A stretch of 64,000 bases of DNA from Blastocatellia bacterium (GTDB lineage: Bacteria > Acidobacteriota > Blastocatellia > Pyrinomonadales > Pyrinomonadaceae), in contig PMSM01000014.1 in the NCBI GenBank assembly GCA_003168335.1, forward strand, positions 124,001 to 188,000, in the 5' to 3' direction. How positions within the stretch are numbered: position 1 is the stretch's first letter; every line of letters begins with the position of its first letter. Position numbers and translations under genes: made by a program. The notes under the pieces are model-generated. The model worked only from the letters and a program-made list of their open reading frames with translations, did no database searches and had not been told where the DNA came from. Shown here piece by piece: positions 30,509 to 46,820 of this stretch.

Positions 30509-32071
30509 ATGACTGAACTAAAGCTTTTACAGTGCAGGATCGACGGCCGCTACGATATCGAAGACTGTCTGGGTCGCGGCAGTTATGCCGAGATTTACAT
30601 GGCCCGCGATCTCGCCGCCACCGACGAGCGCTTTCGCAAAGTAGTAATTAAGGCACTGAACGTCCTGCTTCAGGGTTATCAGGATCCAGAGCTGGAACGC
30701 ACGCTGACCCAGAATTTTCAGAACGAAGCGATCGCCCTCGATCGGGTGCGGCATCCGCACATCATCAGCCGCCTCGGCCATGGCACCGCAATTGATCTGA
30801 CGGGAACGGATTTTCATTACATCGTGCTCGAATATCTCGGCGGTGGCGACCTGGCGTTGCTGTGCCGTAAGGAGCCGCTGAAACTCGATCGCGCCCTTTT
30901 TTATTTACAGCAGCTTTGCGCCGGTCTGGCGCACGCGCACGAGTGCGGTGTAATTCATCGGGACATCAAACCACAGAACCTGTTGCTCACTGCCGATCAT
31001 GAAACCCTGAAGATCGCCGACTTTGGCGTGGCAAAGATCGAAGCGACCGAAGGCGCGATTACCCGCGTCGGCACGAATATCTACGCGGCGCCGGAACATA
31101 ACCCGCTGGTGCAAACGGCCGCGCTGATAGCCGGCTCTGTGCCTGGCGCGCAGACTCAATTGACGCCGGCCGCCGACATTTATTCGCTGGCCAAGACGGC
31201 CTATGCGATGATCTGCGGGGCGCCGCCGCGCGTGTTTGCCCACCACGCAATCACGGAATTGCCGGCGCCAATGTCCGCCGAGCCCTGGGCGCAATCTCTG
31301 CTGCGCGTGCTGGAACGCGCGACGCAGACGCGACCAGGCGATCGTTATCAAACGGTCCAGGATTTTTGGGACGAGCTCAGCGATGCTTCACTGCCGGCCA
31401 CCCAACCCCTGACCACCGCCCAGGCATCACGGCGCATTAGCTCCGATCTGAGTCTGGAGGCCGAAGTAATTACTGCGGCGCCGCCAAAACCGCGTTTCGA
31501 GACTTCGCGCGAACTTCAATATCAGGAAGTTGCCGGTAACGGAGCTACGCGGCCGAAGATCGTGGTGCCGATAGCAGGTCAGTTGGCGGGCCATTTGACA
31601 GTGGCTCCGATGCAGGGTTTCGCGGCCCCGCAGCAAGTCGGCCGGGTGACGGTGCCGGTGTCCCGGAACGGCCAGCCTGCCGGCGCCGGCCATGGCCATA
31701 TCGCTCTAAAGCCTCGAAGACGCACTCGTGACTTCGTCGTCGGACTCGTTCTCGTGTTATGTTTCGCTGGTTTGCTCGTGGCTACGGGTGCTTATGTGCG
31801 CTCCTTGATCAGGGCCCGAACGGGAGCTCAAACTACCACGACCGGCGTCGTGGGGCATGATGCTTTGACTACTAACGATCTAAACTTGCGCGACGGCCCG
31901 AACGCTACTAATAATCAGATCGGGCTGGCGGAAGCGGGATCCAAAGTGCGCGTCTTGAATGTAAACAACAATTGGTGTGAAGTTCAGATCGTGCAACACG
32001 CTCGCCCAAAGGACGATCCGAATTCCGCGGATCGCGGTTGGGTAAACAAAAGGTTTTTGAAGTTTGACTGA
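30509..32071 (+). CDS. Membrane Ser/Thr protein kinase with C-terminal SH3-like domain
   Basis: A 520-residue Hanks-type kinase. The N-terminal domain has the glycine loop 'LGRGSYAEIYMARD' (near 18-31), Lys in 'KVVIKALN', catalytic 'HRDIKPQN' (about 150-157) and 'DFGVAK' (about 170), with an activation-loop 'RVGTNIYAAPE'. A Pro/Ala-rich stretch follows, then one membrane helix (about 410-430, 'VVGLVLVLCFAGLLVATGAY'). The outer C-terminus is a bacterial SH3-like domain ('NLRDGPNATNNQIGLAEAGS', 'GWVNKRFL'), probably wall-binding. Actinobacterial PknB has PASTA repeats in this place. Expected substrates are the FHA and wall enzymes encoded beside it. Confidence 0.93.
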   Translation: MTELKLLQCRIDGRYDIEDCLGRGSYAEIYMARDLAATDERFRKVVIKALNVLLQGYQDPELERTLTQNFQNEAIALDRVRHPHIISRLGHGTAIDLTGTDFHYIVLEYLGGGDLALLCRKEPLKLDRALFYLQQLCAGLAHAHECGVIHRDIKPQNLLLTADHETLKIADFGVAKIEATEGAITRVGTNIYAAPEHNPLVQTAALIAGSVPGAQTQLTPAADIYSLAKTAYAMICGAPPRVFAHHAITELPAPMSAEPWAQSLLRVLERATQTRPGDRYQTVQDFWDELSDASLPATQPLTTAQASRRISSDLSLEAEVITAAPPKPRFETSRELQYQEVAGNGATRPKIVVPIAGQLAGHLTVAPMQGFAAPQQVGRVTVPVSRNGQPAGAGHGHIALKPRRRTRDFVVGLVLVLCFAGLLVATGAYVRSLIRARTGAQTTTTGVVGHDALTTNDLNLRDGPNATNNQIGLAEAGSKVRVLNVNNNWCEVQIVQHARPKDDPNSADRGWVNKRFLKFD

Positions 32072-32077
32072 CCGACC

Positions 32078-32133
32078 GTTTAGAGCACGCACTTGTGCGT
32101 GCGGCATCGCGGGCACAAGTGCCCTGGCTAAAC
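32078..32133. repeat. Short paired inverted repeat (GTTTAG...CTAAAC border)
   Basis: Arms 32078-32102 and 32113-32133 with the internal CGCACTTGTGCG palindrome, between the kinase stop and the second FHA gene. The borders match family B but the body differs. Confidence 0.75.
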
Positions 32134-32164
32134 GAATCAGATTGTTTGAGGCGCACTCCAAAAT

Positions 32165-33040
32165 ATGGGACTAATTGAATCCATTCGACGCTGGATCGAC
32201 GGTGAGACTACCGACGACCTCTTGGAAGAAGCAGACGAGCATGCGCGACCGCGGCGCGTTTGGGAAGAGTTTCTGGTAAAGATCGCGCGCGAAGTTGAAG
32301 CTTGCATGCAACGCGAAATGTTCACTCCGCCCGGCGGTCCAACCTACATTCCCCGCGAGTACATCGTCTACCTCAGCAACGATGACGATAAAGAGTGGCA
32401 GGGCGACAAGCGACGCGGATTAGAGCAGGGTCTCTTTCATGTTTTGTCCGAACGCGCGCGCGAGCTGGCGGCCTCTGCACAGTTGCAGGCTAAGTCTTTT
32501 GCCATCGAGTTACGCGTCGATGGGACGCTGGCCAAGGGTGAGTTTCGCGTCCAACCCGTCTGGGACGAAACCGAAGCCGGCCACACGATGGTTACAGTGC
32601 GCCCGGCCACTGCTGCAACCGGTACAGCGCCCGCGGCCTCGACAGCAGCGGTGGAGGGCGAAGGTGATACGGCTACGCCCGGCGAGTTCGATGGGGGCGA
32701 TGTGACGGTGGTTCGTCCCCGCGTAGTCGACCTTTACTCGATCGAGCTTTGGCGTGAAGGAGTCCGGCAATCAGTCGTGAAGATCACCAAAGCGGAAATT
32801 ACTATCGGTCGCGGTTCGAGATCAGTGGCAGTGGATCTGCCTTTGAAAGGCGATCCCGAAATCAGTCGCGTGCACGCCACCCTCACCTTTGATGATCAGG
32901 GTCGTTTCTGGCTGACTTCCAAAGGCCGAAACCCAACGTTGGTTTCCGGCCGGGAGATTCAGCGCGAGGAACGCACCATCGTCCAGCCTGACGAAAAGAT
33001 CGGCGTCTGTAGTTATACGCTGCGCATCCAGCCGAAGTGA
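32165..33040 (+). CDS. DUF3662-like/FHA-domain protein
   Basis: A 291-residue cytoplasmic adaptor, the second FHA protein of the block. The N-terminal part (about 30-145) is the better DUF3662 match: 'YIPREYIVYLSNDDDKEW', 'RARELAASAQL', then 'FAIELRVDGTLAKGEFRVQP'. A linker rich in Ala/Thr follows. The FHA domain (about 195-290) has 'ITIGRGSRSVAVDLP', 'EISRVHATL' and 'SKGRNPTLVSGREI'; Gly-Arg, Ser and His are kept, but the final Asn-Gly is replaced by Ser-Gly. It probably reads threonine phosphates made by the kinase 90 bp upstream. FhaA-type proteins in actinobacteria bind the lipid II flippase MviN/MurJ. Confidence 0.85.
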   Translation: MGLIESIRRWIDGETTDDLLEEADEHARPRRVWEEFLVKIAREVEACMQREMFTPPGGPTYIPREYIVYLSNDDDKEWQGDKRRGLEQGLFHVLSERARELAASAQLQAKSFAIELRVDGTLAKGEFRVQPVWDETEAGHTMVTVRPATAATGTAPAASTAAVEGEGDTATPGEFDGGDVTVVRPRVVDLYSIELWREGVRQSVVKITKAEITIGRGSRSVAVDLPLKGDPEISRVHATLTFDDQGRFWLTSKGRNPTLVSGREIQREERTIVQPDEKIGVCSYTLRIQPK

Positions 33041-33047: not shown

Positions 33048-33379
33048 CTAATAGATCTCCCAACATGCCGCCGCTTGGTCTTCCGTAAACGCGGCTATTG
33101 CTTCCGCATGATCGCGCAGTCTGTGTTCGACGGCATGAGTTGGTTGATTGCCGCACCGCAGCCAGATGACTTTCGGCGGCGGACCAAAGAGGGTCGCCAT
33201 ATCGGCGAAATCTGCGTCCTGCGAAACGAGAATGAAATCGTTTGCTTTCGCATATTCCCAGATGGCTCGATCCTCAGCTGTTCCATGCCAAGCAAGCGAA
33301 TTTGATTTGATTCAGGAAAAGCGTCGGCCAGTAGGCGACTGAGTTTGAAGCTCAAGTTCTGATCGAACAGCAGCTTCAT
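33048..33379 (-). pseudogene. Frameshifted DUF5615 PIN-like toxin gene
   Basis: The N-terminal about 34 residues (start 'MKLLFDQNLSFKLSRLLADA') read in one frame. The remaining about 76 residues continue in the next frame as 'AEDRAIWEYAKANDF', 'LVSQDADFADM', 'FGPPPKVIWLRCGNQ' and stop at 33048-33050. The break lies at 33271-33280, where one base (a G in CAGGCT) appears lost. DUF5615 proteins are PIN-like nucleases acting as toxins; Asp in 'FDQN' and 'DADF' are the catalytic acids. It overlaps the DUF433 antitoxin gene by 4 bp. Either a true inactivation or a sequencing error. Confidence 0.85.
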
Positions 33380-33600
33380 ATTGTCGCTGTCACGAGTTTG
33401 CGCTCACGGTCCGCAGCATAGGCGAGACAAGCACGAATATCTTCCTCGGACAGTTCGGGATAATCGCTGAGGATTTCTTCATGAGACATTCCTGCGGCCA
33501 GCCAACCGAGCACGTCGGCGACGGCAATCCGCATCCCTCGAATGGTCGGTCGCCCGCCGCGCTTACCGGGTTCGATGGTGATGATGTCCTGGTAGTTCAT
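33376..33600 (-). CDS. DUF433 family antitoxin
   Basis: A 74-residue winged-helix-like antitoxin: 'RGGRPTIRGMRIAVADVLGW', 'AGMSHEEILSDYPELSEEDI' and 'ACLAYAADRE' are the family hallmarks. DUF433 proteins pair with DUF5615 PIN-like toxins, and here the stop overlaps the toxin start by 4 bp (ATGA), so the two were translated together. Since the toxin frame is broken, the antitoxin may now be a relic or may still bind its promoter (inference). Confidence 0.92.
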   Translation of the reverse strand: MNYQDIITIEPGKRGGRPTIRGMRIAVADVLGWLAAGMSHEEILSDYPELSEEDIRACLAYAADRERKLVTATI

Positions 33601-33651: not shown

Positions 33652-34917
33652 TTAGTGACTGCTCGCGGTAGCGGCCATCGCGCCACCATCAAGGTCGGAG
33701 ATCAGTTGGGTAAGAAGAGGACTCACGCTCTCAACGTCTTCGTAATTCTTCCCCAGCAACTTCATCAGGCGTTTCTCTTTTGAAGTGCCCTCGATCTCTT
33801 TCAGGAAAGCGCGGCAGAAGGCACAAACGACTGCGGGCTCAAACTGGGTCCCGGTATTGGCGCGAAAGTCTGCCAGCACGTCTACCAGCGCGAGACGCTT
33901 CCGGTACGGCCGATCGGTCGTCATCGCGTCAAATGAATCCGCCAGCGTAACTATCTTTGCGCCGGGCGGAATCTCGTCGCCCTTCAGCCCGTCGGGATAA
34001 CCATTGCCATCCAGCCGTTCGTGATGGTAGCGGGCCATCAAAGGGATGTCGGCGTAAGGATGACTGATCGGCGCCAGGATTTCGTAACCGGCTGCCGGAT
34101 GCCGGCTCATCTCTTTCGATTCCTTCGCATTGAAACGCTCGGGAGAGTTGATGACGTTAAGATCGACGATCAGTTTGCCGATGTCGTGAAGATAACCCGC
34201 GATGGCAATGCCTTCGACGGCGTCATCACTCCAACCCAGTTCCCGCGCGATGATCTCGCTGTACTTGCCGACGCGCACCGAATGCCCCTGAGTGTATCTG
34301 TCCTTGATATCAATCGCCGCGGCAAACGCGTGCACTGTTTCTTTGTAGATTGCCCGCAGACCTTCGTATAAGCGGCGGTTCTCTTCCGCTTTGTGCTCTA
34401 CTTCCTCCAGTAGCCGGTGGCTGTGAATTCCTACGCCGATGTGACGCGCCAGCGCCCCCACGATCTGCAGGTCTTCTTCGGTAAACTTTTCGCCGGTCGC
34501 CTTTTCGCCCAGCAGCACCGCGCCAATCAAACGCTCGCGCACCACCAGCGGCACCAGCAGATCGATCTCGACTGACGCAAAGGCATCTTTGTGATCTTCG
34601 AGAAAGTTTCCGGCTTCGCTTCGCGCTTCATCGAGCGTGAGCGATGAACCAAGACTCGCCAAATGACGCGCGCGTTCGCTGGCCAGCGGCAGCACGAGTT
34701 CCGGCGACTCGCCCAGGCCTCGCGCCGCGATTAAACGGAGCTCACCGCGCTCTCGATCGTATTCGCCGACGGCGCCGCGCCTGATCGCGAGCGAACCCAA
34801 CAAGAGATGAAACGACGCACGCAGCATCTCTTCAAAATCGCCGGTGTCGGCTATCTCCTGCCCCAGATCGGCCAGCGCGGCAAAGGTGTGTAGTAATCGT
34901 TGAGTGTTTGTTTCCAT
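33652..34917 (-). CDS. GAF-HD-GYP protein, probable cyclic di-GMP phosphodiesterase
   Basis: A 421-residue cytoplasmic enzyme. Residues about 20-165 are a GAF sensor ('LLVPLVVRERLIGAVLLGEK'). After a coiled helix, the HD-GYP domain (about 195-385) has 'GHSVRVGKYS', 'AGYLHDIGKL', 'HPAAGYEIL', 'YHHERLDGNGYPDGLKG' and 'LADSFDAMTTDRPYRK', all metal and signature residues. It should hydrolyse c-di-GMP to pGpG or GMP. It follows the STAS gene on the same strand with a family D repeat in the gap. Its synthetic counterpart may be the diguanylate cyclase at 45084. Confidence 0.92.
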   Translation of the reverse strand: METNTQRLLHTFAALADLGQEIADTGDFEEMLRASFHLLLGSLAIRRGAVGEYDRERGELRLIAARGLGESPELVLPLASERARHLASLGSSLTLDEARSEAGNFLEDHKDAFASVEIDLLVPLVVRERLIGAVLLGEKATGEKFTEEDLQIVGALARHIGVGIHSHRLLEEVEHKAEENRRLYEGLRAIYKETVHAFAAAIDIKDRYTQGHSVRVGKYSEIIARELGWSDDAVEGIAIAGYLHDIGKLIVDLNVINSPERFNAKESKEMSRHPAAGYEILAPISHPYADIPLMARYHHERLDGNGYPDGLKGDEIPPGAKIVTLADSFDAMTTDRPYRKRLALVDVLADFRANTGTQFEPAVVCAFCRAFLKEIEGTSKEKRLMKLLGKNYEDVESVSPLLTQLISDLDGGAMAATASSH

Positions 34918-35011: not shown

Positions 35012-35398
35012 TTAACTCGTCGAGCCGGCCACGTTTGTTTGTGGAGCCACCAAAGCCAAAGCTTCGTTCTCGTCTTTGGCGACACTGACCAGCCTGGTCA
35101 GTCCCAGCATCTCGAACAGCTTCGCGGTGTGGCTGTTTACGTCAGAGAAGATCAGCTGCGCGGTGTTCTGCTCGGCTGCGTCGATGACACCCATGAGGAT
35201 CGAAACTCCGATACTGTTTACCAGTTCGGTGTCTCGGAAATTAATCACGAGAGCCCGGCAACCCGACTCAAGCTGACGCTTACATTCGCGCTCGATGCGC
35301 TCGCCGCTCAGCTTGTTCAGGTAATCGCTGGCATAGATGATCGCTGTGTCTCCAATGCAGCGCGCCTGCACCGGAGTCTCCCCGGTTGTGTCCGCCAT
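35012..35398 (-). CDS. STAS-domain anti-sigma factor antagonist
   Basis: A 128-residue stand-alone STAS protein of the SpoIIAA/RsbV type. 'ALVINFRDTELVNSIGVSIL' carries the conserved Ser (near 62), the phosphorylation site in this family, and 'LFEMLGLTRLVSVAKDENEA' completes the fold. Such proteins free sigma factors by binding RsbW-like kinases when unphosphorylated. An RsbW-like domain is encoded at 42859, 7.5 kb away, and could be the partner (inference). Upstream of the HD-GYP gene on the same strand. Confidence 0.9.
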   Translation of the reverse strand: MADTTGETPVQARCIGDTAIIYASDYLNKLSGERIERECKRQLESGCRALVINFRDTELVNSIGVSILMGVIDAAEQNTAQLIFSDVNSHTAKLFEMLGLTRLVSVAKDENEALALVAPQTNVAGSTS

Positions 35399-35448: not shown

Positions 35449-36912
35449 CTATTCTTCACGTTTACTGAACCGACGTCGGGCGCGATTGAGGCTATGCCAC
35501 AGAGCAGCGGCAGTCACGCCGCAGGCCGCGATCATCGGAGGATAGGCTTCGACGATGTATCGGGTCTCGGGCGCGTAATGATAAGCCATGAAGATTGTTC
35601 GCAGCAGCACCGTCAATAAAAGCAGTGTGACTAGTGCCGACCGTTGACATAACAGTGCAAAGCCCAGGATCCCGCCAATGATAATCGGCAGCACTGAGAG
35701 GACTCTAATCACGAGCAAGAGAGTTGGAGACGCGACTGGGAGAATCTTAAAAATGCCTACGTGGTTTGTCGGCTGACGCACGGCGAACCCAGTCAACCAC
35801 ATAGACGCCGCGCGGCGAACCGGCAAGGTGATCAGAAATCGCGCGGGTGTGCGCGCTATTCGCTCGTTCGCGATCTGGGCGAAGCCATCGCTAATGGCAG
35901 GCGTAAAAAGGCGAGTCTGGTTGTATTGGGCAATTAACGTCAAAACGCGGCGGTACTCTTCGGGCGAGTCGAAGGCACTATCAGGCAGTCGATTTGGATC
36001 TAAATACGCCGAACCTCCATCAAAAGCCGGGGGGAAAACATTACTAAAGTAAGTTTCGTCGGTGATCCACGTCCGTATCCATTTCAAGTATCCGGGAGGC
36101 ATGTAAGTAGCTCGGGAAAATCCGTACTCAGAGGCGAGCGGCTGAAACTTGCCTAACGTAAAATAGTTACGAACCACCCAGGGCGCGAGCACCAGGACAA
36201 TCCCAAGAGCGAGACTAAGAATATTCCTAACCCTGCCCCACGAGCGCACTTGTGCCATGCGACCGAGCAGAAGTAGCACCAGACTAAAAGCAAGAAACAC
36301 AGAATCAGGCCGCGTCAGCAGAGCAAGACCGCACCCTAATCCGGCGCCCAGCCACAACCAGTTCCTTTTTTGCCGTGCTCGCATCGCCAGAATGCAAAGC
36401 CCCACGACGGACATGGTCAAGAACAAGGTTAATGTTTCAGTCAGCAAGTCTGAGGTCCACACAAACGTAAACCAGGAGAACACCCCGGCAATGCTTACCG
36501 AGAACATCGCGGCTGAGTCTTTCAGTGAGGCCGAAGCGAGGTTAAAGGATACGAACCCGATGAGCAGGCAGGTTGCGAGGTCAATCACGACTTGCAATAA
36601 TTTAACCGCCATCTCGTGCCGACCAAATATTTTATAGGTGAACGCGATAAACAAGGGATAGACAGGTACCGCAGCTTCGCCCGTGGTGTAAGGGGGCTGC
36701 TGATCGATTGAGAAGCCATGACCATCCAGAACATTTACCGCAGTTGCGATGTACCGCGATTTGGCATCGCCGTTTGCCGGCGGGGCCGTGATCACAAAGA
36801 CCATACGAACTGTCACGGCCAGCAGGAAAATAACGACGATCTGAAGCGCCCGTCCCCGCCGAAGGTGACCTGGCGAATTGACCTCGCTCGTACTTGAAAA
36901 GACTCCTTGCAT
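35449..36912 (-). CDS. Glycosyltransferase family 39-like (ArnT/PMT) membrane protein
   Basis: A 487-residue polytopic inner-membrane protein with about 11 helices. The first outer loop has 'ANGDAKSRYIATAVNVLDG', where the Asp matches the catalytic acid of GT-C enzymes that use polyprenyl-phosphate sugars, and 'AVPVYPLFIAFTYKIFGRHE' is typical of the PMT/GT39 group. The C-terminus is 'HSLNRARRRFSKREE'. Donor and acceptor are unknown; the neighbouring GT2 and sugar-modification genes suggest lipid-linked surface glycan. It is divergent from the next membrane protein, with a 337-bp gap. Confidence 0.85.
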   Translation of the reverse strand: MQGVFSSTSEVNSPGHLRRGRALQIVVIFLLAVTVRMVFVITAPPANGDAKSRYIATAVNVLDGHGFSIDQQPPYTTGEAAVPVYPLFIAFTYKIFGRHEMAVKLLQVVIDLATCLLIGFVSFNLASASLKDSAAMFSVSIAGVFSWFTFVWTSDLLTETLTLFLTMSVVGLCILAMRARQKRNWLWLGAGLGCGLALLTRPDSVFLAFSLVLLLLGRMAQVRSWGRVRNILSLALGIVLVLAPWVVRNYFTLGKFQPLASEYGFSRATYMPPGYLKWIRTWITDETYFSNVFPPAFDGGSAYLDPNRLPDSAFDSPEEYRRVLTLIAQYNQTRLFTPAISDGFAQIANERIARTPARFLITLPVRRAASMWLTGFAVRQPTNHVGIFKILPVASPTLLLVIRVLSVLPIIIGGILGFALLCQRSALVTLLLLTVLLRTIFMAYHYAPETRYIVEAYPPMIAACGVTAAALWHSLNRARRRFSKREE

Positions 36913-37249
36913 CTACTCAGGCGATTCAATAGACTCGCGCCTCGTCAGGCTCGCGCCTCGTCTTAATGCGTCGCTCCTCTTCAGAGCACGCTCTCAGCGA
37001 GCGGTAGTATAGGTATTTCGTTCACGTCCTTCAACGCGGAATCCTTTGACCGTGCAGGGGATGTTCGCTGACGTGGATGATTGTGATAACCCAGGCAGTC
37101 GGTTCGCACTTGAAAGTTGCGGTGGCCCGGTTCACCACGCTTCGTTAAGCTCTCTTACTATGACGCCGCCATGCACGGCTCTTTTTTTGAACAATTGTTC
37201 TAGCTTCCTTTGTCCGCGACGTTGCATTCACGCGGTCGCAAAAGTCTGA
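36913..37249. other. Divergent gap between two glycan membrane-protein genes
   Basis: 337 bp without a supported gene. It contains a short tandem CGCGCCTCGTC(A)GGCT repeat (about 36934-36963) and, at 37189-37200, the perfect 12-bp palindrome GAACAATTGTTC preceded by a seven-T run, 49 bp before the ATG at 37250. The palindrome could be an operator; I see no clear -35/-10 pair. Confidence 0.55.
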
Positions 37250-38995
37250 ATGGCATCAGTCACCCAGAGCACTTCCCGGCTAGCACCGCGGTTGGCTTCA
37301 GGCCTAACGCTACTACCGCCGTGTTTCCTGGCGGTTCTGGTCTTCACTTACAGCGTCGATCTTCCCCAATGGGACCAGTGGACCTATGTTAGTTTTTTTG
37401 AGGAATTTTCGCGGGGCTCCTTAACTCTTAGCCACCTATTCGCGCAGGTCAACGAGTATCGACAATTCTTTCCGAATCTGGTTTTTGTCGCGTTAGGCCG
37501 GCTAACGCGCTGGGATGTCAGATATGAAATGTGGGCTATTCTTCTGGCAGCGTGTCTCATCTCTTTCAATGTTTATCGACTGGGAAGACTAACGATCGAA
37601 GGCACTCAATTACGGAGAGCCCTCCTGCTCTTCATGGCAAATCTGCTGATCTTTTCTCCCGTACAATACCCGAACTGGTTGCAGGGACAACAGCTTGTTT
37701 ATTACGTCCCGATCGCCTGTATCACCGGCTGTATTTTGGTGGCGCATTCACGGCTGAACCCGATTGCCAGATTCCTGATTTGCGGCGGTCTGTCCACTAT
37801 CAGTACCTTTTCATCCGCGAATGGCGGAGTGTGCTGGATCGTTGTGCTTCCGGTTCTTCTGACCGCCGCGCTTGACCGCATTCCTGCGAGAAGATGGTTT
37901 GTAGCGGCATGGATCATAGGGCTTCTCTCTAACGCTGCGCTTTACTTGTACGGGTATCATAAACCATGGTGGTCGCCCAGCCCGCTGGCGGCTCTGGCCC
38001 ACCCGTTGCAGGCGCTCATTTACTTTCTGATCTTTCTGGGAGCGCCGCTCGGATTGGAAAAGGGAAAATTGGCGATGCTCGTGGGGATTCTACTGCTGTC
38101 CCTGTTTGCGATCGGATGCCTGTTCGTCATTCGGTTCCGCGATGACTCGATATTTGTACGGCGCATGACGCCATGGTTGATGGTCGGCGCTTACTCAATC
38201 CTGACTGGAGTGATGACCATGATTGGTCGTGTAGGTTTAGGCGTCGGCCAGTCTATCATCACGGCGAGATACATCGGCTACTCCGTTTATCTTGTTGTGT
38301 GCCTGGTTTTTGTGGTGCCGATTGTAGGCGAGAAACTTACCAGGGAAGCTAAGTTTCTCAGCCGCCGCCGAGTGGCACAATTTACGGTTGGCGCCGCAGT
38401 TGCGTTCTTACTCTGGCAGCCACTGACGTTTGCCGTAGGGATTGCGGGGATGAAGAAAATGAGGCTGGAGCTGCTGCAGGCCAAAGCCAGCGTGCTCCTC
38501 ATCAATTACGTGCAGGACCCGGAGTTGGTGCATACTCTCTATCCCGACTTGAGTTTTCTGGCCGCACAGGCGAACATTCTCGATAAACTTGGGTACTTGA
38601 GACCTGGGCTGGAAAGGAGCAACAGGCTTCAGGACTTTGAAGGCGCCAAAGCGATCACAAATGGTTACGGTTCGCTGGATCATGTAGAGCTGCGCGACCA
38701 CGTCTATGTCGTCTCAGGGATCGCCGCTCTACCCAATCGGCATGAAGGCGCGGACGCGGTGCTCCTGGCCTATGAACGGCCGAACGGTGATTGCATAGTG
38801 TTTGCGCTTACTCATCCGAAGCTGGGAACCGCCGGCTCACACGATCCAGGTGACGATGGGCGTCACCTTCAGCGTTGGGAACTGTCTTTATCTGCAGATC
38901 GGCTGCCGGCGCGTCCGGCGAACATAACTGCCTGGGCATTCGATGCGAATAGCGCCAGGGCCTATCGGCTTGATGGCAGTTATGTGATTCCATAG
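37250..38995 (+). CDS. Polytopic membrane protein, possible GT-C-type glycosyltransferase
   Basis: A 581-residue protein with about 11 membrane helices. After the first helix comes 'LPQWDQWTYVSFFEEFSRG' and 'AQVNEYRQFFPNLVFVALGR', a layout like the acidic first outer loop of GT-C transferases, but I do not recognise the family by name. The last about 150 residues are soluble ('KASVLLINYVQDPELVHTLY') and end in a beta-rich part. It leads a plus-strand group with a GT2, an epimerase and an aminotransferase, so a role in surface glycan transfer is inferred. Confidence 0.7.
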   Translation: MASVTQSTSRLAPRLASGLTLLPPCFLAVLVFTYSVDLPQWDQWTYVSFFEEFSRGSLTLSHLFAQVNEYRQFFPNLVFVALGRLTRWDVRYEMWAILLAACLISFNVYRLGRLTIEGTQLRRALLLFMANLLIFSPVQYPNWLQGQQLVYYVPIACITGCILVAHSRLNPIARFLICGGLSTISTFSSANGGVCWIVVLPVLLTAALDRIPARRWFVAAWIIGLLSNAALYLYGYHKPWWSPSPLAALAHPLQALIYFLIFLGAPLGLEKGKLAMLVGILLLSLFAIGCLFVIRFRDDSIFVRRMTPWLMVGAYSILTGVMTMIGRVGLGVGQSIITARYIGYSVYLVVCLVFVVPIVGEKLTREAKFLSRRRVAQFTVGAAVAFLLWQPLTFAVGIAGMKKMRLELLQAKASVLLINYVQDPELVHTLYPDLSFLAAQANILDKLGYLRPGLERSNRLQDFEGAKAITNGYGSLDHVELRDHVYVVSGIAALPNRHEGADAVLLAYERPNGDCIVFALTHPKLGTAGSHDPGDDGRHLQRWELSLSADRLPARPANITAWAFDANSARAYRLDGSYVIP

Positions 38996-39018
38996 TTAGA
39001 CGACCCTTGTTACAGCCA

Positions 39019-39738
39019 ATGGCAAAACCCCGAGCCCGCAAAAGCATTTCCGTTTTCTTCCCGGTTTTCAACGACCAGGAAACCATTGAGTCGCTCGCCG
39101 AGAAAGCTCTGGCGGTTCTACCGGCGCTGACCGACGATTATGAAGTCCTGTTGATAGACGATGGCAGCACGGACGCGAGCGCCTCGGTCGCAGATGAACT
39201 GGCGCGCAACCTGAAGCACGTCAGGGTGATTCACCATTCGGGGAACCAGGGCTACGGCGCGGCCCTCCGGACCGGCTTCAGCAACGCCTCCAAGGAATTG
39301 ATTTTCTACACCGATGGTGATGGACAATACGACGTAAGCGAACTGGCACTGCTGGTGCCGCTGATGAGCGACAGGGTTGACGTGGTTAATGGATATAAGA
39401 TAAGCCGTGAGGACAATCGCGGCCGAAAAGCGGTCGGTGCAATGTATAATCGAGTGGCACGTTTCATCTTTCGTCTCCCAATCAGAGATGTTGATTGTGA
39501 TTTCCGACTGGTGCGACGTTCGGCTATCGATAGAATATCATTGGGACTTTCGAGCGGCGCGATTTGCGTGGAATTGGTACGTAAACTTAAATCTGCCGGC
39601 TGTACATTCCGAGAGGTCCCGGTGCATCATTATCCACGTATTCACGGGAAGTCGCAGTTTTTTACACCACGACGAGTGGCCCGAACTCTCTTCGATTTCT
39701 GCGCACTTTGGTTGAGCCTATCGCTCTCAGGCTCCTGA
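39019..39738 (+). CDS. Family 2 glycosyltransferase (dolichyl-phosphate mannose synthase-like)
   Basis: A 239-residue GT-A enzyme. 'ISVFFPVFNDQETIESL', 'LLIDDGSTDAS', 'NQGYGAALRTGFSNA' and the metal-binding 'FYTDGDGQYD' are present, then 'DCDFRLVRR' and 'VPVHHYPRIHGKSQFF' typical of polyprenyl-phosphate hexose synthases. It lacks the C-terminal membrane helices of larger relatives. The ATG at 39019 is preferred over an upstream TTG. It starts 23 bp after the previous membrane protein; it may make the polyprenyl-phosphate sugar used by the GT-C-like neighbours (inference). Confidence 0.9.
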   Translation: MAKPRARKSISVFFPVFNDQETIESLAEKALAVLPALTDDYEVLLIDDGSTDASASVADELARNLKHVRVIHHSGNQGYGAALRTGFSNASKELIFYTDGDGQYDVSELALLVPLMSDRVDVVNGYKISREDNRGRKAVGAMYNRVARFIFRLPIRDVDCDFRLVRRSAIDRISLGLSSGAICVELVRKLKSAGCTFREVPVHHYPRIHGKSQFFTPRRVARTLFDFCALWLSLSLSGS

Positions 39739-39834
39739 CCTTGGTAGCCCTAACGCCGCAAGAGATTTTGGAGCACAGACTTGCCCCCTGGTTGGGAGAA
39801 CAGTGCGCCCTTCAGGGTCGATTGTGAGACCGCC

Positions 39835-40857
39835 ATGTCTGGATCCTTTAGCGAATACAAAGGTCGTTCCGTCCTTATTACCGGTGGCCTTGGGTTCATA
39901 GGTAGTAATCTGGCTCGCCGGCTAGTCGAAGTCGGCGACGTGGATGTAACTATCGTCGACGCTCTCTTGCCCGGACAGGGCGGCAATCCTCATAACATCC
40001 ACGACGTCCGTGATCGGGTCACGGTTCATACCGCAAACATGGGCAATGACTGGGTGATTAATCATCTGGTTGGCGGCGTGGATTACATTTTTAATCTCGC
40101 CGGTAGCGTTAGTCACCTCGACTCCATGGTCGATCCGCATTTGGATATGGAGCTGAATTGCGCGGCCCAGCTCAAGCTTCTGGAAGCCTGCCGCAATTTC
40201 AATCCGCACGCCAAGATCGTTTACACGAGTACACGGCAGGTTTACGGCGAGCCGGTCTACTTGCCGGTCGACGAACAACATCGGATTGCACCGCTGGACA
40301 TCAACGGGATACACAAACGAGCGGCAGAACAGTATCACCTGCTCTATCATCGCATCTACGGCACGCGGGTCGTCTGTTTACGGCTGACCAACACGTACGG
40401 CCCGCGCCAGCTTCTACATCACAACCGGCAGGGATTTATCGCGTGGTTTATTCGCCAGGCAATGGATGGCGGGGTAATTGAGCTGTTCGGTGAGGGCAAG
40501 CAAAAGCGGGATCTGGTCTATGTCGATGATGTCGTTAACGCGCTGCTGCTGGCGGGTGCAAGTGCGTCGACTGAAGGAGAAATCTACAACCTTGGTGGCG
40601 CAGAACCGGTCAGTCTGGCTGACCTGGCAAACGAGCTAATCCGTCTCACCGGACGAGGGACTATTGAGTCCAAGCCTTTTCCCCTGGAGCGTCGACTAAT
40701 CGATATCGGAAACTTTTACGCTAGTTCTCAGAAGATTGAGACTGAGTTGGGCTGGCGCGCGCAGACGTCTCTAACCCAGGGTCTCAGCCAAACAGTTGAA
40801 TTCTATTCGAAGAACCGCGAGTACTATTGGAACCCACATGCCAGTACCCTTCCTTGA
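39835..40857 (+). CDS. NAD-dependent epimerase/dehydratase (extended SDR)
   Basis: A 340-residue nucleotide-sugar enzyme from the ATG at 39835. The Rossmann motif is 'ITGGLGFIGSNLARRL'. Further conserved parts are 'YIFNLAGSVSHLDSM', 'KIVYTSTRQVYGEP', and 'RLTNTYGPRQ'. At the usual YxxxK site the sequence is 'DINGIHKRAAEQYH': the Lys is kept but Asn stands where Tyr is expected. The same replacement is known in a subgroup of these enzymes beside DegT aminotransferases. It overlaps the aminotransferase gene by 20 bp. The reaction (4-epimerase or dehydratase) is not certain. Confidence 0.88.
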   Translation: MSGSFSEYKGRSVLITGGLGFIGSNLARRLVEVGDVDVTIVDALLPGQGGNPHNIHDVRDRVTVHTANMGNDWVINHLVGGVDYIFNLAGSVSHLDSMVDPHLDMELNCAAQLKLLEACRNFNPHAKIVYTSTRQVYGEPVYLPVDEQHRIAPLDINGIHKRAAEQYHLLYHRIYGTRVVCLRLTNTYGPRQLLHHNRQGFIAWFIRQAMDGGVIELFGEGKQKRDLVYVDDVVNALLLAGASASTEGEIYNLGGAEPVSLADLANELIRLTGRGTIESKPFPLERRLIDIGNFYASSQKIETELGWRAQTSLTQGLSQTVEFYSKNREYYWNPHASTLP

Positions 40858-41947
40858 TCTCAGGCGACAGCACCGGGAGATTGAGAGCGAAGTCAACTCA
40901 GCGCTGGCGCGCGTTACCAGCAGCAGCGCGTTCATACTCAACGGCGAGGTTGAGGCCTTTGAAACTGAGTGGGCGCGCTTCTGCGGAGTCCGGGAAGCGG
41001 CGGCCACAAACAGCGGCACCGATGCCTTAGCGCTTGCTTTGATTGCTACGGGCGCTCTTTCGAGGGGCAAAGACCACGAAGTCATCACCTCGCCACTCAC
41101 GGCTGGCTATAGCGCACTTGCAATCCTCAGTGCCGGAGCCGTGCCCGTCTTTGCCGACATAAATCCGCGTACCTATACGCTCGATCCCGAGAGCGTTGAA
41201 AAAGCGATCACCCCTCGCACCCGCGCGATCATTCCCGTACACATCTACGGGCAGATGGCTGACATCGAGGGCATTTGTCAGGTTGCGTCACGGCACGGGC
41301 TGGTCGTGATCGAAGATGCTGCCCAGGCGCATGGCGCTGTGAGCCTCGGGAAACGCGCCGGCGCACATGGGATTGCTGCCGCCTTCAGCTTTTACCCGAC
41401 CAAGAATCTTGGCGCTTACGGCGACGGCGGGGCGGTAACGTCAAACGATGTGCAGCTGTGCCAGCGAGTGAAGAGTCTGCGTGAAGGCGGCCATCTTGAA
41501 GCGCTGCAATTAAGCGAGATTGGGCGTAACTCGCGCCTGGACGAGATCCAGGCGGCAGTGCTGCGGATTAAGTTAAAGTATCTCGAAGAGTGGAACCTTA
41601 GACGACTAAGCTTCGCAAAGATGTATCTCGATCAACTTTCTGGTTTAAGCAGTCGTCTGACATTACCCTATGCCTCTGAGCCGGGAGCGCACGTTTATCA
41701 TCTCTTCGTCGTCCAGCGCGAAAACCGTGAGGCTCTCCGCGCACATCTGTCCAGGCAAGGCATCGAGACGATGATTCACTATCCCTTCCTGCTTCATCAG
41801 CAGCCTCTCTTCCGCCGCCAGCGGCAAAGGCCGTTGCCAGTAGCTGAGGGCCTGGTCAAGAGGATCCTCTCCCTGCCACTTTATCCTCACCTTAAAGTCG
41901 ATGAACTACTCGCTGTGTCGCGCGCGATTTGTGAGTTCGAAGAGTGA
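40838..41947 (+). CDS. DegT/DnrJ/EryC1/StrS family sugar aminotransferase
   Basis: PLP-dependent transferase of an amino group to a nucleotide-linked keto sugar. 369 residues from the ATG at 40838 ('MPVPFLDLRRQH', the family's typical start). 'ATNSGTDALALAL' binds PLP phosphate, 'VVIEDAAQAHGAV' holds the pyridine Asp, and 'FSFYPTKNLGAYGDGGA' carries the Schiff-base Lys. It overlaps the epimerase by 20 bp, so the two are coupled and likely act in turn on one nucleotide sugar. The 3' end overlaps the convergent methyltransferase gene by 61 bp. Confidence 0.93.
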   Translation: MPVPFLDLRRQHREIESEVNSALARVTSSSAFILNGEVEAFETEWARFCGVREAAATNSGTDALALALIATGALSRGKDHEVITSPLTAGYSALAILSAGAVPVFADINPRTYTLDPESVEKAITPRTRAIIPVHIYGQMADIEGICQVASRHGLVVIEDAAQAHGAVSLGKRAGAHGIAAAFSFYPTKNLGAYGDGGAVTSNDVQLCQRVKSLREGGHLEALQLSEIGRNSRLDEIQAAVLRIKLKYLEEWNLRRLSFAKMYLDQLSGLSSRLTLPYASEPGAHVYHLFVVQRENREALRAHLSRQGIETMIHYPFLLHQQPLFRRQRQRPLPVAEGLVKRILSLPLYPHLKVDELLAVSRAICEFEE

Positions 41948-42714
41948 GGCCGGGAAGGTTTCTGAGCTACACAAATCGCCGAAAGGCCGAAGCTCAACTT
42001 TGCCGCAGGACGCCTCAGCCAGCGCGCTTCAGTTCGCAAGGTCGCATTCAATGCCGAATTCAGCCAGCGCAAAGTGGAGGGCAGGGGTTTTACGTCTGAC
42101 CCCGAAGCGAGGCCGATACGCTTCAGGACCAGCCGCCGGAATACGGCCAGAGGCATTAGTAGCGCGTTAGCGTGAGTCGATCGCAAAACGTCAAAGCCCG
42201 CGAGCTTCATTTTGCCGACGAGCTCCTCAAGCAAATAGCGATGGCTGGTAACTAACGCGCTGTCATGACTGCTCCTCATCCATTCGTATGCTGCGACGCG
42301 AACAAAAGCTATTCCTTCCGGTTTTAGGACGCGCTGGATTTCGTCGATCGCACGATCAGCACTGGTCTCGCTGGGCAACTGGCCCAGAATCTCAAAGCTG
42401 GTCACAAGATCAAAACTCGAATCAGAAAATGGCAAGTCGGTCACCGACGCCTGGGCCACGGTCGTTTGGCCACCCAGACGGCAGAAACCTACGGCTGTGG
42501 GACTAAGATCAACTCCCGCCACGCGCCCACTTCCCGCATAGCGCTTGAGCCAGGAGATCATGCCTCCAGTGCCACATCCGGCGTCGAGGATTGACCGGTC
42601 TCTCGTCGTCGGACAGACCGGATCGAGCAGGGCTGCCGTGATCTCGCGCATGCCTGCGAACCACCAGAAGTCCTCTTCCAACTCGTACAGGTACGCATAA
42701 TCCTCAAGCTGCAT
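41887..42714 (-). CDS. Class I SAM-dependent methyltransferase
   Basis: A 275-residue enzyme. Motif I is 'ILDAGCGTGGMISWL' (near 41-55), then 'GVDLSPTAVGFCR', 'ASVTDLPFSDSSFDLVTS' and 'IQRVLKPEGIAFVRV', a Methyltransf_11 pattern. The N-terminal 'LYELEEDFWWFAGMRE' is typical of methyltransferases in polysaccharide loci. The last about 20 residues are encoded antisense to the end of the aminotransferase gene, so the C-terminal tail is probably not conserved. Substrate unknown; a sugar or glycan is likely from context. Confidence 0.88.
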   Translation of the reverse strand: MQLEDYAYLYELEEDFWWFAGMREITAALLDPVCPTTRDRSILDAGCGTGGMISWLKRYAGSGRVAGVDLSPTAVGFCRLGGQTTVAQASVTDLPFSDSSFDLVTSFEILGQLPSETSADRAIDEIQRVLKPEGIAFVRVAAYEWMRSSHDSALVTSHRYLLEELVGKMKLAGFDVLRSTHANALLMPLAVFRRLVLKRIGLASGSDVKPLPSTLRWLNSALNATLRTEARWLRRPAAKLSFGLSAICVAQKPSRPHSSNSQIARDTASSSSTLR

Positions 42715-42858: not shown

Positions 42859-45087
42859 TTAGGGTCGCAGGTACTTCGTCATCCTCAACTGTGTTCCATC
42901 ATCGACCCGTTCGAATTCAACTTCGTCCATCAGCGTTTGAATCAGCTTCAGTCCCCAACCGCGTCGGCTCTGCGCGTCGTCGTTCTCATCTCTGCCGCCG
43001 GCTTGCTGACCGTTCTGACCCACAAGACTTGCCGGCACGACTCCGCGACTCGCAACTGTAACGACTAATCTATCATTTTCCACGCGAAACCGCTGATAAA
43101 TCTTGCCGTCCGGACTAAGGCTATGTTCCGCCGCATTGATGCAAGCTTCAATCAGCGCGGTCTTGATCTGGTTAATTGCCTCGGGTCCGAAGTGCGCGCG
43201 CCGTGCAATCTGTTCCACCGTGTGGGCCGCGATCAGTTCCGTGTCCGCCCCCATCGGAATAACCATTTCGAATTCGTTGGGCCGGCTCTCCGCCTTATCT
43301 TTTGCTGCTGACTTGATGCGAGCTGTAATTAGATCAACCTGGCGCCGGCTCGAGCCAAAAGCTTCGCGCCTGTTGAGCAGCTCGCAAGCCGCAGTTGAAA
43401 ACCCTTCGGGCGCCACCAGCCACAGACGCACCCGGCCAAAGCCGCACTCACGCGCCAGACTCGCCAGGCGATCACACCACTCTTCAGTCAGTTCCCTGCT
43501 CGCTTCGAGTTTGGAATCAATCTCAGCGGCCAGCCACACTATTTCATTTTCATCCGTATAGTCCGCGGCCTCAAAACCGTGCGCCACAGCACATCGCTCA
43601 CCCTCGCACGGTACCGACGGCGAATACCCATTGCAGCCGGCGGCGTAAACAATTTGCGGCAGTCTGATTAAGTCGGATTCCCTGTCGAGGGCCGCGTCGA
43701 CTGTTTCGGTGTCCTCACCCTTATGGACCGCCGCGAACCGATCGTAATGGAACAAGCTTGCCGGCACGCTCTGACAATTGAAATCCGAGATGAGCTCGCG
43801 CAGACCCAGCGCGGCTTCGCGTCGATATTTTCGCGCCATCGCCTGCGGCGCCCGCTTTAAAGAGTCGAGCAGTGTCGTGGCGACGATCAGGGCGCGTGCC
43901 TCACCCGCCACCTCTGCGCGATAGTGTGCGCGCAGGTAATCCATCCACACGTACGAGTCGGCGTTTACCTCGATAAACGCAGCGCTCGAATTTGCCAGCT
44001 CGTGGACGTGCAAGGCATCGACGATATGCTCGAACTCAGCTGCATCGACACTCAGGCGCTTCTTCCAGGCCCAAAGAGAAGACTTGTGTGCTCCGCTCGC
44101 AGCCGACTCAAACAGAACGCGCAGCAGTGTCTTCCTGGTCTGCGGGTTCGGCGCGGCCGCGTCCAGAATTCTGGTGAAGTGTCGGTAAATGTGTCCGCCC
44201 ATCAGCTCGTCAACGTAAAGACGCTGACAATTCAGAAAGCTGGTCAGGGGCGTCTTTGATTCCCGGGCAGCCTGGATCAAAGCGTCGATGAAGAAAGGAT
44301 TCGCATTCATTTGTTGCACGATCAGATCGCGCGTGGGCTCGTTGGTTTCAATCTGGTACCGGCGCGCAGAAACCTCGACCAGCTTGCGCCCGTCATCGTC
44401 GCTCAGCCGCTCGAGGCGAATCAGTTCACTTGCGTCGTGTCCGTCGTCAGTTCCATGAATCAGGTTGATCACCTGCCGTCGCAGGCCGGCCAGCGCGAAC
44501 GGGCCATTTGGGCGCGTGATAGCGGCGGCGATCTCCTGCCCGAGCCTGGCCTCGTCTTTCGCTGAAGTGGCAAGTTTACTGCAGTCGATCAAGTGAAAGA
44601 TCTTCCGGCCCGCCGCGGAAAGACGATGTGGCGCGTTTAAACAGAACCGCACAAAGTCGCCCTGATCCCCGCCGGAGCGCTCGCGTTCAAAACCCTCGAT
44701 GAGTTCACTGACCAACTCGTAGTCGCCGGGTAGGGCGAGCTCCAGCAAGTCGTGGAACGTCAGCCGGGCGTCACACAGCGAAGGATCGACTCGACGATAA
44801 GCGATGTATTGTTGCAGCAGATTTTGAAAGAACCGCCGGGCCGCGTCGAGCGGCGTGCCTTCACTCTGCTTGAACGCGAAGTAGATGGGCACAGGATCAC
44901 CGCGGCGGACGAACAACTGATCGTAGGCCTGACGCAGCAGCTCTGCCGCGCCGACGCCGGGGGCGGCCAGTACCACAAGTCCGTTAGGATCCAGGGACGC
45001 GTGCCGCACGATCTGCTGTAGTTCCGCGTCGCGGCCCACAAATTCGTCACGGCTCACATTGGCAAGTATGCGCTGGTGGGTCATCAA
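42859..45087 (-). CDS. Degenerate AAA-like ATPase fused to RsbW-like histidine-kinase-type ATPase domain
   Basis: A 742-residue protein. The N-terminal part looks like an AAA/STAND ATPase ('FVGRDAELQQIVRHASL'), but the P-loop reads 'APGVGAAELL', lacking the Lys and Thr of GxxGxGKT, and the Walker B region ('KIFHLIDCSKL') lacks the acidic pair. The middle (about 450-600) is unrecognised. The C-terminal about 135 residues are an anti-sigma kinase-like HATPase: 'INQIKTALIEACINAAEHS' (N box), 'VTVASRGVV' and 'RRGWGLKLIQTLMDEV'. Its start overlaps the diguanylate cyclase stop by 4 bp. A role passing a signal to a sigma-factor antagonist is inferred. Confidence 0.78.
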   Translation of the reverse strand: MMTHQRILANVSRDEFVGRDAELQQIVRHASLDPNGLVVLAAPGVGAAELLRQAYDQLFVRRGDPVPIYFAFKQSEGTPLDAARRFFQNLLQQYIAYRRVDPSLCDARLTFHDLLELALPGDYELVSELIEGFERERSGGDQGDFVRFCLNAPHRLSAAGRKIFHLIDCSKLATSAKDEARLGQEIAAAITRPNGPFALAGLRRQVINLIHGTDDGHDASELIRLERLSDDDGRKLVEVSARRYQIETNEPTRDLIVQQMNANPFFIDALIQAARESKTPLTSFLNCQRLYVDELMGGHIYRHFTRILDAAAPNPQTRKTLLRVLFESAASGAHKSSLWAWKKRLSVDAAEFEHIVDALHVHELANSSAAFIEVNADSYVWMDYLRAHYRAEVAGEARALIVATTLLDSLKRAPQAMARKYRREAALGLRELISDFNCQSVPASLFHYDRFAAVHKGEDTETVDAALDRESDLIRLPQIVYAAGCNGYSPSVPCEGERCAVAHGFEAADYTDENEIVWLAAEIDSKLEASRELTEEWCDRLASLARECGFGRVRLWLVAPEGFSTAACELLNRREAFGSSRRQVDLITARIKSAAKDKAESRPNEFEMVIPMGADTELIAAHTVEQIARRAHFGPEAINQIKTALIEACINAAEHSLSPDGKIYQRFRVENDRLVVTVASRGVVPASLVGQNGQQAGGRDENDDAQSRRGWGLKLIQTLMDEVEFERVDDGTQLRMTKYLRP

Positions 45088-46820
45088 AAACTGTTGCTCT
45101 TAGCGGCCGTTCGGTTTGCTCCGGTCTGGACACCCTGGTACGCGTAAGCGCGGTTCTTGCCGTGCCTCTTCGCGTGATAGAGCGCCCGGTCCGCGGCGCG
45201 CACCATAGCCTCGGCCGAGTCGAGCGCCGGCGAAAGAGCAGAAAGGCCGATACTAACGGTCACAGCGCCAAGTGGCTGCGATTTGCCGTGCGTAAACAGC
45301 GTGCTGTAGATTTTGCGGCGAATGCGATCGGCGATCACACCGGCTTCCTGCAGGTTGGTTTGCGGCAGCAGGATGGAAAACTCCTCGCCGCCGTAGCGCG
45401 ACGCCACGTCAACTTTGCGCAACGCAGCCCTCAAGCACTGCGCGGTGATCTCCAAAGCGCGATCGCCTGCCTGGTGGCCGTTCTGATCGTTATAGACCTT
45501 GAAATCGTCGATATCGATCATCATAAAGCTCAGCGGGTAATCGTAGCGCTTCGAACGGCTCAACTCTTCTGCCAAACGCGCCTCGAGGTAGCGCCGGTTG
45601 TGCAGACCCGTCAGTGGATCCGTGATCGACATTACCTGGAACTGGTTGGCTCTTTCCTGCCAGGCGGCGCGCTCAAGCGCCAGCGCAATTTGGGGCGCGA
45701 CCAACTCAATGACGCTCAGGTCGTTCGCATCATAGGCGCCGCCACCAACCTTGTCCGTCAAATTGAGAACTCCGAATCTGCGGCTTCCGATAGAGATTGG
45801 ATAACTTATGAATGACTTTGTTTTGTAGCCCCGCTCTGGCAAGCTCGACCTGCCCAGGTCGTCCATGCTGGCGACCACGGGGCGACCTTCCCGCAAAACG
45901 GATCCGGCAATTCCCTCGCCCATGGCAATCGGGCCAACTTCGCTGATGGATGCTTTGATCCCGCGCGACGCGGTCATCGTCAAGTGGTTTGTCGATTCAT
46001 CGAAAAGAAGCAGCGACCCGCGCTCGGCCCTGACCAGGTCGGCCGCCTGCGTCAGAATTGATTGGTACGTCTGCGCCGGCTCGCTCGCGTCAATCTGTTC
46101 GGTGAATCTGCGAATTGAATCTGCGAACGGTGCGCGGCGATCGAGTCCGCGTCGGATACTCGCTTCGGCGCGTCGATCTTCAGCCGGTGCATCGCCGCCT
46201 TCCGGCGTTGGCGCGGCGGCGACGGTGGACGCTGTAGAGTCTGCCACTTTAGTCTGGTCGAACTCTCTGGCGGCCATGGCCACGCGCAAGGCTGCATGAT
46301 CGAGATCAGCTTCGTCCGCAAAACTCACGTTGCGAAACAGATTGTCGGAACTCAGATCCTTAAGGTCGCCTGAGCGAAATCGTTCGGCCAGCGCACGGTA
46401 ATCCGAGCTGCTCACGAAGGCCCGGCCGCCGATTACGGCGAGCTGACGTTGGCTGTCAATCTCAACTGGCATAGCAAAGCACTGCAAACCCGCATGGCAA
46501 CGATAATGCGTAATGGTGTTAGCGCTGACCGCGCGGTCATGGGCCGTGCCGCAGAACGGATCGCAAAGACCGACGTGTGCAGAAGACGATTGCAGGGCTT
46601 CGCAGATGGAGTTGTTGTTGGTGATCGCCAGTGCCGGCGGTTGAGGGCCCTCAACCAGAAGCAGCGCGATGCCAGCCGTTTCGGCGATGGTTTTTTGGAT
46701 TCCCGCCCAACCTCTCGGCGCCAGCTCCGGAACCTCCTGCGTAATCGCTGTCGATCGCTTGACGCTCTTATCCTTCATCGCCCTACTCTCTTTTTGCGTT
46801 TCCGCGCGCGACTGTTTCAT
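45084..46820 (-). CDS. PocR-GAF-GGDEF diguanylate cyclase
   Basis: A 578-residue c-di-GMP synthase. Residues about 35-190 resemble a PocR ligand-sensing domain, with cysteines in 'HVGLCDPFCGTAHDRA' and 'YRCHAGLQCFAMPV'. A GAF domain follows (about 250-400, 'ERGSLLLFDESTNHLTM'). The GGDEF domain (about 410-565) has 'DPLTGLHNRRYLEARLAEEL', the inhibitory-site RxxD in 'RKVDVASRYGGEEF' (near 467-480) and 'VSIGLS'. All residues for catalysis and product inhibition are present. Cotranslated with the dead-ATPase/RsbW fusion downstream. The PocR cysteines may bind a metal or small molecule (inference). Confidence 0.92.
   Translation of the reverse strand: MKQSRAETQKESRAMKDKSVKRSTAITQEVPELAPRGWAGIQKTIAETAGIALLLVEGPQPPALAITNNNSICEALQSSSAHVGLCDPFCGTAHDRAVSANTITHYRCHAGLQCFAMPVEIDSQRQLAVIGGRAFVSSSDYRALAERFRSGDLKDLSSDNLFRNVSFADEADLDHAALRVAMAAREFDQTKVADSTASTVAAAPTPEGGDAPAEDRRAEASIRRGLDRRAPFADSIRRFTEQIDASEPAQTYQSILTQAADLVRAERGSLLLFDESTNHLTMTASRGIKASISEVGPIAMGEGIAGSVLREGRPVVASMDDLGRSSLPERGYKTKSFISYPISIGSRRFGVLNLTDKVGGGAYDANDLSVIELVAPQIALALERAAWQERANQFQVMSITDPLTGLHNRRYLEARLAEELSRSKRYDYPLSFMMIDIDDFKVYNDQNGHQAGDRALEITAQCLRAALRKVDVASRYGGEEFSILLPQTNLQEAGVIADRIRRKIYSTLFTHGKSQPLGAVTVSIGLSALSPALDSAEAMVRAADRALYHAKRHGKNRAYAYQGVQTGANRTAAKSNSF

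Follow-up and report, generated by a model that had tools for sequence, protein, structure and literature searches.

A STAND–RsbW-like fusion protein, a STAS protein and c-di-GMP enzymes form a conserved gene set in Blastocatellia

Partner switches that act on the enzymes of cyclic diguanosine monophosphate (c-di-GMP) turnover are already known. According to the available parts of the reports, SiaC activates the diguanylate cyclase SiaD unless it has been phosphorylated by SiaB (PMC8457831, PMC7647112), and HsbA binds the diguanylate cyclase HsbD in a manner that depends on Ser56 (PMC5085249). Here we describe a related gene set in a stretch of 64,000 nucleotides (the window) from a Blastocatellia bacterium of the family Pyrinomonadaceae (contig PMSM01000014.1, positions 124,001 to 188,000). 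The host family consists mostly of soil bacteria. The set comprises a PocR-GAF-GGDEF cyclase, a STAND-type sensor fused to an RsbW-like HATPase domain, a STAS protein and a GAF-HD-GYP protein. We propose, with a probability of about 0.6, that a partner-switching module was here remodelled for the control of c-di-GMP turnover, in which sequestration perhaps counts for more than phosphorylation. A first-pass annotation made from the letters of the window had pointed to a sensor ATPase in degenerate form, joined to a HATPase of the partner-switching type and linked to c-di-GMP enzymes, and this idea is supported by the present analysis. Its observations held in part, with one error concerning Walker B, and its interpretation also found partial support.

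The gene set and its conservation

Two open reading frames (ORFs) of the minus strand, at 45084–46820 (578 residues) and 42859–45087 (742 residues), overlap by 4 bp as first annotated, or by 1 bp if translation really begins at the ATG directly following the listed TTG. The 578-residue product is a PocR-GAF-GGDEF diguanylate cyclase, as had been recognised: Pfam places PocR at 46290–46703, GAF at 45672–46082 and GGDEF at 45150–45626, and the translation contains GGEEF together with an RxxD I-site motif (RKVD). The 742-residue product is the fusion. The STAS protein (128 residues, 35012–35398, PF01740 with an expect value (E) of 3e-10) and the GAF-HD-GYP protein (421 residues, 33652–34917; GAF at 34426–34839 and HD at 33829–34323 by Pfam) are both present on the minus strand, where the first-pass annotation had seen them.

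The set was followed through 60 related genomes, the window's own included, with orthologues accepted at E of 1e-100 for the fusion, 1e-20 for the STAS protein, 1e-100 for the HD-GYP protein and 1e-70 for the cyclase, or better. The fusion is present in 35 of the 60, and its companions occur with it more often than by chance: a STAS orthologue was found in 34 of these 35 genomes and an HD-GYP orthologue in 33, each in 0/25 genomes without the fusion (Fisher p < 1e-14, with kinship uncorrected). One fusion genome, G002, is without both STAS and HD-GYP (79% complete, its fusion gene lying at the end of a contig), and another, G009, is without HD-GYP (78% complete). The fusion and STAS genes are separated by 24–291 bp in 29 of 34 genomes, and STAS and HD-GYP by no more than 600 bp in 32 of 33. 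The cyclase–fusion pair had been offered as a coupled one, an idea to be given up if the two genes were never neighbours; the cyclase in fact lies beside the fusion or a piece of it in 35/35 fusion genomes (the fusion reads as two pieces in G031 and is split between contigs in G022). Two families can be distinguished within the same class, namely f1, the window's own, with members mostly labelled Pyrinomonadaceae or Acidobacteria, and its sister family f2. All five f2 loci (5/5) carry cyclase, fusion, STAS and GAF-HD-GYP genes in this order on one strand. The suggestion that the STAS and HD-GYP genes complete the circuit is thus well supported, as they are adjacent in most relatives, co-occur and are missing together. 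Gene content, order, co-occurrence and joint absence are direct observations here.

Joint absence is best seen in three genomes that would act as natural deletions. The cyclase occurs in 38 of the 60 genomes, four of which have no fusion; one of the four, G035, is cut by a contig end and was not counted. In the other three (G012, G019 and G033) the cyclase is flanked on one side by ABC-transporter genes and on the other by the FHA gene seen after HD-GYP in other genomes. A tblastn search of those stretches detected none of the fusion, STAS and HD-GYP genes, nor did genome-wide searches find any orthologue of the three; the G019 and G033 stretches end soon after the junction, so that the junction is visible and little beyond it. 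From the place of these genomes inside f1 we infer losses. Since the cyclase stands alone in them, cyclase and fusion were rejected as an essential pair, and the tight unit is fusion, STAS and HD-GYP. The neighbouring Ser/Thr kinase, Stp-type PP2C and FHA genes were likewise rejected as members, all three remaining in the module-less G012 and the FHA end in G019 and G033, and none of them being matched beside the module in the f2 loci.

In the window the fusion–STAS gap is 7464 bp, and an insert of about 7.5 kb parts the two gene pairs. This block of six ORFs (35449–42714), delimited from the ORF list, Pfam and locus comparison, encodes PMT_2 and methyltransferase domains by Pfam and, by eye, glycosyltransferase-, epimerase- and aminotransferase-like proteins. 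The genome with the most similar fusion, G004, has a gap of 2108 bp and homologues of two of the six ORFs, which indicates that the insert either expanded in one of the two lineages or contracted in the other.

GGEEF is found in 67 of 73 distinct cyclase reads, and the remaining 6, all from f2, have AGDEF; in f2 (L061–L065) it is the paired cyclases that carry AGDEF, not GGEEF.

Folds and motif states of the fusion protein

Pfam yields HATPase domains only in the window fusion, with none in its front or middle: HATPase_c_2 (PF13581) matches residues 620–738 at E 3e-20 and 72.8 bits against a cut-off of 27.4, while HATPase_c falls under its cut-off. The NCBIfam RsbW equivalogs reach just 64 of 145 and 61.8 of 155 bits. 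When solved structures were searched by sequence, again just the HATPase part was matched, apart from one match at E 0.98. The predicted structure of the whole fusion has a mean pLDDT (predicted local distance difference test score) of 82.4 and a pTM (predicted template modelling score) of 0.59. Residues 603–740 of this model (42868–43281) superimpose on 6m36_C with a Z score of 17.1 and a root-mean-square deviation (rmsd) of 2.0 over 105 (VIA-align), and the nearest solved structures are RsbW and SpoIIAB, in agreement with the RsbW-like HATPase domain of the first reading.

The front had been called AAA/STAND-like, and the fold match on the model agrees. By VIA-align, residues 9–400 (43888–45063) resemble 2qen (Z 20.8, rmsd 4.5 over 320, range 9–387) and 2fna (Z 20.1), with NLR and apoptosome chains at Z up to 18.7; the last part is presumably a winged helix, as in the matched structures. 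Among the f2 relatives Pfam gives mostly weak AAA/STAND matches, one of which, nSTAND1 in L062, is above the cut-off.

The middle region (residues 405–602; 43282–43875), at first left unrecognised, was modelled separately (pLDDT 85.9), and this model appears to resemble the PD-(D/E)XK nuclease fold. The closest match is AF1548 (1y88; Z 10.2, rmsd 2.6 over 113 residues, VIA-align), followed by nicking, restriction and repair enzymes, RPB5, Card1 and Can2 at Z 5–8. The assignment is based on VIA-align and on most top rows sharing one superfamily. Since Foldseek with the middle alone returned no match with E < 0.001, it is to be read as a fold resemblance and not as proof of descent. A search for the catalytic D...(D/E)xK pattern found a [DE]-x-K-like stretch at 524–526 in most f1 rows, with Asn524 in f2, the superposition leaving its carrier strand unsettled, and the alignment has no conserved Asp at 499–505. 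The nuclease-like middle is probably non-catalytic.

The motif states were read from an alignment of distinct fusions, from which eleven duplicates and the fragments L001, L013, L028, L036, L047, L056, L058 and L060 were left out, as were L024, L038, L029 (genome and sequence identical to L061) and the fusions known solely from the phylum scan described below. L030 matches in the HATPase part only. The Walker A region of the window fusion (44944–44970) has lost both Lys and Thr, as first noted. Across f1 the Lys is lost in 37/37 rows, but a Ser or Thr remains at the Thr place in 35/37. GxxxxGK[ST] is accordingly found in 0/37 distinct f1 rows, window included, and L024 and L038 likewise have no Walker Lys. 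The statement that Walker B lacks acids was mistaken, as Asp168 (LID) is identical in 42/42 rows. The first-pass annotation had said that homologues carrying an intact P-loop in this position would count against its reading, and such homologues do exist: GxxxxGKT is intact in 5/5 f2 rows. The front therefore derives from a P-loop NTPase, and the Lys was lost in f1. Judged from the alignment, the death of the f1 P-loop probably came after the fusion had formed.

The HATPase domain has kept some of its motifs and lost one. Glu647 and Asn651 of the N box and the glycines of the G2 box are kept in 42/42 fusions; the N-box Glu and Asn are residues with known roles in SpoIIAB. The G1-box Asp at position 680, the adenine-holding residue, is lost in 42/42 (Ser in 28, Asn in 14), and the window has S-R-G at residues 680–682 (43042–43050) versus D-x-G in stand-alone relatives, where the G1 box DxGx(G/R)F is found in 19/19 HATPase rows. 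Of the 'partner-switching kinase' initially proposed, the partner-switching type of HATPase stands, while the kinase label is doubtful because of the lost G1-box Asp.

Domain identity and motif states could also be read directly for the other two proteins. The candidate phospho-acceptor of the STAS protein, Ser62 (NSIG, 35213–35215), is a Ser in 51/51 distinct homologues, 47 of them from module loci and 4 from stand-alone sets. The window protein matches PF01740, and none of its four matches up to E 1 is to a DUF1987-named model. HDIGK and HHERLDGNGYP are intact in the window's HD-GYP protein; HDxGK and HHExxDGxGYP are found in 50 of 58 distinct reads, the window's among them, and the remaining 8 end at a locus boundary.

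The phosphatase slot and the proposed switch

The fusion was also searched for in 396 genomes across the phylum, with a threshold of E 1e-25. Of these, 41 gave a match, full-length in 30 (27 f1, 3 f2) and confined to the HATPase in 11. No fusion outside f1 and f2 was found at this threshold, with few candidates scored per genome. Seventeen stand-alone loci were read, consisting of the 11 HATPase-alone matches, five from family f3 and G040. In 15/17, HATPase, STAS and SpoIIE-type PP2C genes follow one another in this order on one strand; G040 has the STAS gene first, then HATPase and PP2C, and no PP2C was found in locus L106. The PP2C model was built from nine of the same loci, which match it by construction, and Pfam as an independent test confirmed PP2C in 12/12 proteins tested.

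The f3 PP2C carries two GAF domains. The first of them is the best match of the GAF from the window's HD-GYP protein in 5/5 f3 genomes (E 1e-22 to 5e-26), the next-best matches being at 1e-13 in one f3 genome and 5e-7 or weaker in the other four. In the opposite direction, with the f3 GAF as query, the HD-GYP protein is the top match in 6/6 genomes (E 1e-14 to 6e-26). This reciprocal-best relation, observed directly, and the gene order indicate that the HD-GYP protein holds the phosphatase's place and a homologous sensor domain. No SpoIIE-type PP2C was detected in 36 module loci scanned, some of the same genome, by a search that detected three known control PP2Cs, though an unrelated-looking Stp-type PP2C is encoded at a greater distance. 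In the five f3 genomes a search at E 1e-70 gave no PocR-cyclase orthologue. In a tree of HATPase domains the fused rows lie apart from most stand-alone rows; the tree is uncertain as to its root, the position of f2 and three long rows.

A second HATPase, with an intact G1 box, is encoded in the same genome as the window's module (L114, G000:C8:235000-241500). By eye, the two ORFs after it resemble STAS proteins, so that this locus may be a further, independent partner switch.

Considering these observations together, we propose the following scheme. The fusion would sense a signal through its STAND-type and nuclease-like parts, in f1 without a working P-loop. By analogy with known partner switches, its RsbW-like domain would hold or release the STAS protein, and the free STAS protein would dock on the GAF-HD-GYP protein and alter its c-di-GMP phosphodiesterase activity. 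The GAF of the latter shares homology with the regulatory region of an RsbU-like PP2C; in RsbU systems the phosphatase acts on the STAS protein. GAF homology and joint absence suggest that the enzyme in the phosphatase slot is the regulated one. The adjacent PocR-GAF-GGDEF cyclase would supply the opposing activity along with a ligand input of its own. In this scheme the binding and switching steps, the direction of control, the enzyme activities and the signal are what we infer.

Several points weigh against the proposal. The cyclase is found without the other three genes in three genomes and need not be their target. The cyclase–fusion and STAS–HD-GYP pairs lie 7.5 kb apart in the window and on separate contigs in G013, G022 and G032. 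Weaker STAS matches (E 2e-16 to 5e-9) occur in 6/25 fusion-less genomes, five of f3 and G040, and the reciprocal-best GAF relation fails in G040. The loss of the G1 box, judged from the alignment, weakens the classical kinase step, and a sigma factor or another protein may be the STAS target. The cut-offs matter as well, for proteins that share the GAF or HD domain match more weakly in many fusion-less genomes.

An ordinary phospho-switch survives best among the alternatives. As a version of the proposed module, its odds overlapping with the latter's, it falls somewhat short of even odds. The HATPase would still phosphorylate Ser62 of the STAS protein, a PP2C from outside would reverse this, and the phosphorylation state would pick the c-di-GMP enzyme. 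The invariant STAS Ser and the N-box residues kept throughout are as expected for such a switch, and three strong SpoIIE-type PP2C matches elsewhere in the window's genome could supply the phosphatase. The G1-box Asp, however, is lost in every aligned fusion and kept in every stand-alone domain, and the module loci scanned are devoid of SpoIIE-type PP2C. In the VanS proteins, as described in the available part of one report, Asn occupies the position of the G1 Asp and ATP is bound only weakly, but they still function as kinases (PMC10017428); by this precedent the loss weakens kinase activity and does not exclude it.

More tentatively, the module could be a partner switch without any phosphorylation cycle. 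The exchange of phosphatase for phosphodiesterase and the loss of the G1 Asp on fusion to a STAND-type sensor would both have taken place in the ancestor of f1 and f2, the STAS protein would be handed over by conformational sequestration alone, and the P-loop of the f1 sensor would have died later. If this were true, a nucleotide-free STAND-type sensor would be tied directly to c-di-GMP destruction.

It is unlikely that the fusion and the STAS protein instead control a sigma factor, with the c-di-GMP enzymes as parallel inputs and not outputs. The nearest solved relatives, RsbW and SpoIIAB, would fit this role, as would GAF and PocR as sensor domains; against it, HD-GYP occupies the phosphatase position of the relatives, and a sigma-factor gene was not noticed beside the module, though no search was aimed at one. 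Mere synteny without functional coupling, in a conserved stretch with the ABC-transporter, Ser/Thr kinase, Stp-type PP2C and FHA genes that flank the module in many f1 loci, is very improbable, given that the fusion–STAS–HD-GYP order holds in all f2 loci, where these flanking genes are unmatched in the stretches read, and that the three genes go missing together with the flanks retained.

The preferred reading of a rebuilt partner-switching module points to an enzyme swap in a signalling operon, in which a second-messenger phosphodiesterase has replaced a phosphatase behind a homologous sensor domain and beside a homologous STAS protein. If the STAS protein controls the HD-GYP protein, partner switching would regulate c-di-GMP degradation and perhaps synthesis as well. 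The relatives provide a natural matched series, with the P-loop intact or dead, the G1 box intact or lost, and the gene set intact, split or missing, which turns phosphorylation-free partner switching into a testable question.

Neighbouring genes and comparison with known systems

Convergent to the HD-GYP gene, the window encodes a Stp-type PP2C, a Ser/Thr protein kinase and an FHA protein at 28934–33040. Two small minus-strand ORFs within 33095–33600, at 33376–33600 and 33095–33379, are taken by us to resemble a DUF433-type antitoxin and a DUF5615-type PIN toxin, respectively, the latter possibly frameshifted. PADLOC gave no match for the cyclase or the fusion and no sign of a defence system. 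A consensus scan found 3 promoter-like sites versus 5.1 in shuffled sequences and 18 terminator-like sites versus 14.7.

In the accessible parts of the open-licence literature no report was found of an HD-GYP protein in a PP2C slot, of a STAND–RsbW fusion (with or without a nuclease-like part), or of the joint loss of the P-loop Lys and the G1 Asp. One of the nearest described systems is SiaABCD of Pseudomonas aeruginosa (PP2C SiaA, kinase SiaB, antagonist SiaC and cyclase SiaD), which resembles the proposed switch in having a kinase and a phosphorylatable partner that binds and activates a cyclase. As far as the available sections of its reports describe it, SiaABCD differs in having a PP2C and a DUF1987 partner, where the module has a PF01740 STAS protein, HD-GYP in the PP2C slot and a STAND-fused HATPase (PMC8457831, PMC7647112). 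In the HptB-HsbR-HsbA/HsbD pathway an anti-anti-sigma (STAS) protein binds a diguanylate cyclase in a Ser56-dependent manner; the available part of its report describes neither an HD-GYP protein in the phosphatase position nor a STAND fusion (PMC5085249).

The front of the fusion shares the fold of its residues 9–400 with STAND and archaeal ATPase_2 proteins (2qen and 2fna, and the NLR and apoptosome NTPases). It differs from them in the window in having no Walker A Lys and in being joined to a C-terminal RsbW domain. The RsbW–STAS–PP2C sets of other Acidobacteriota have a related HATPase and STAS protein, the same gene order and, in f3, a homologous GAF in the third gene. In contrast to the module, their third gene encodes PP2C and not HD-GYP, their HATPase is unfused, and its G1 box is intact.

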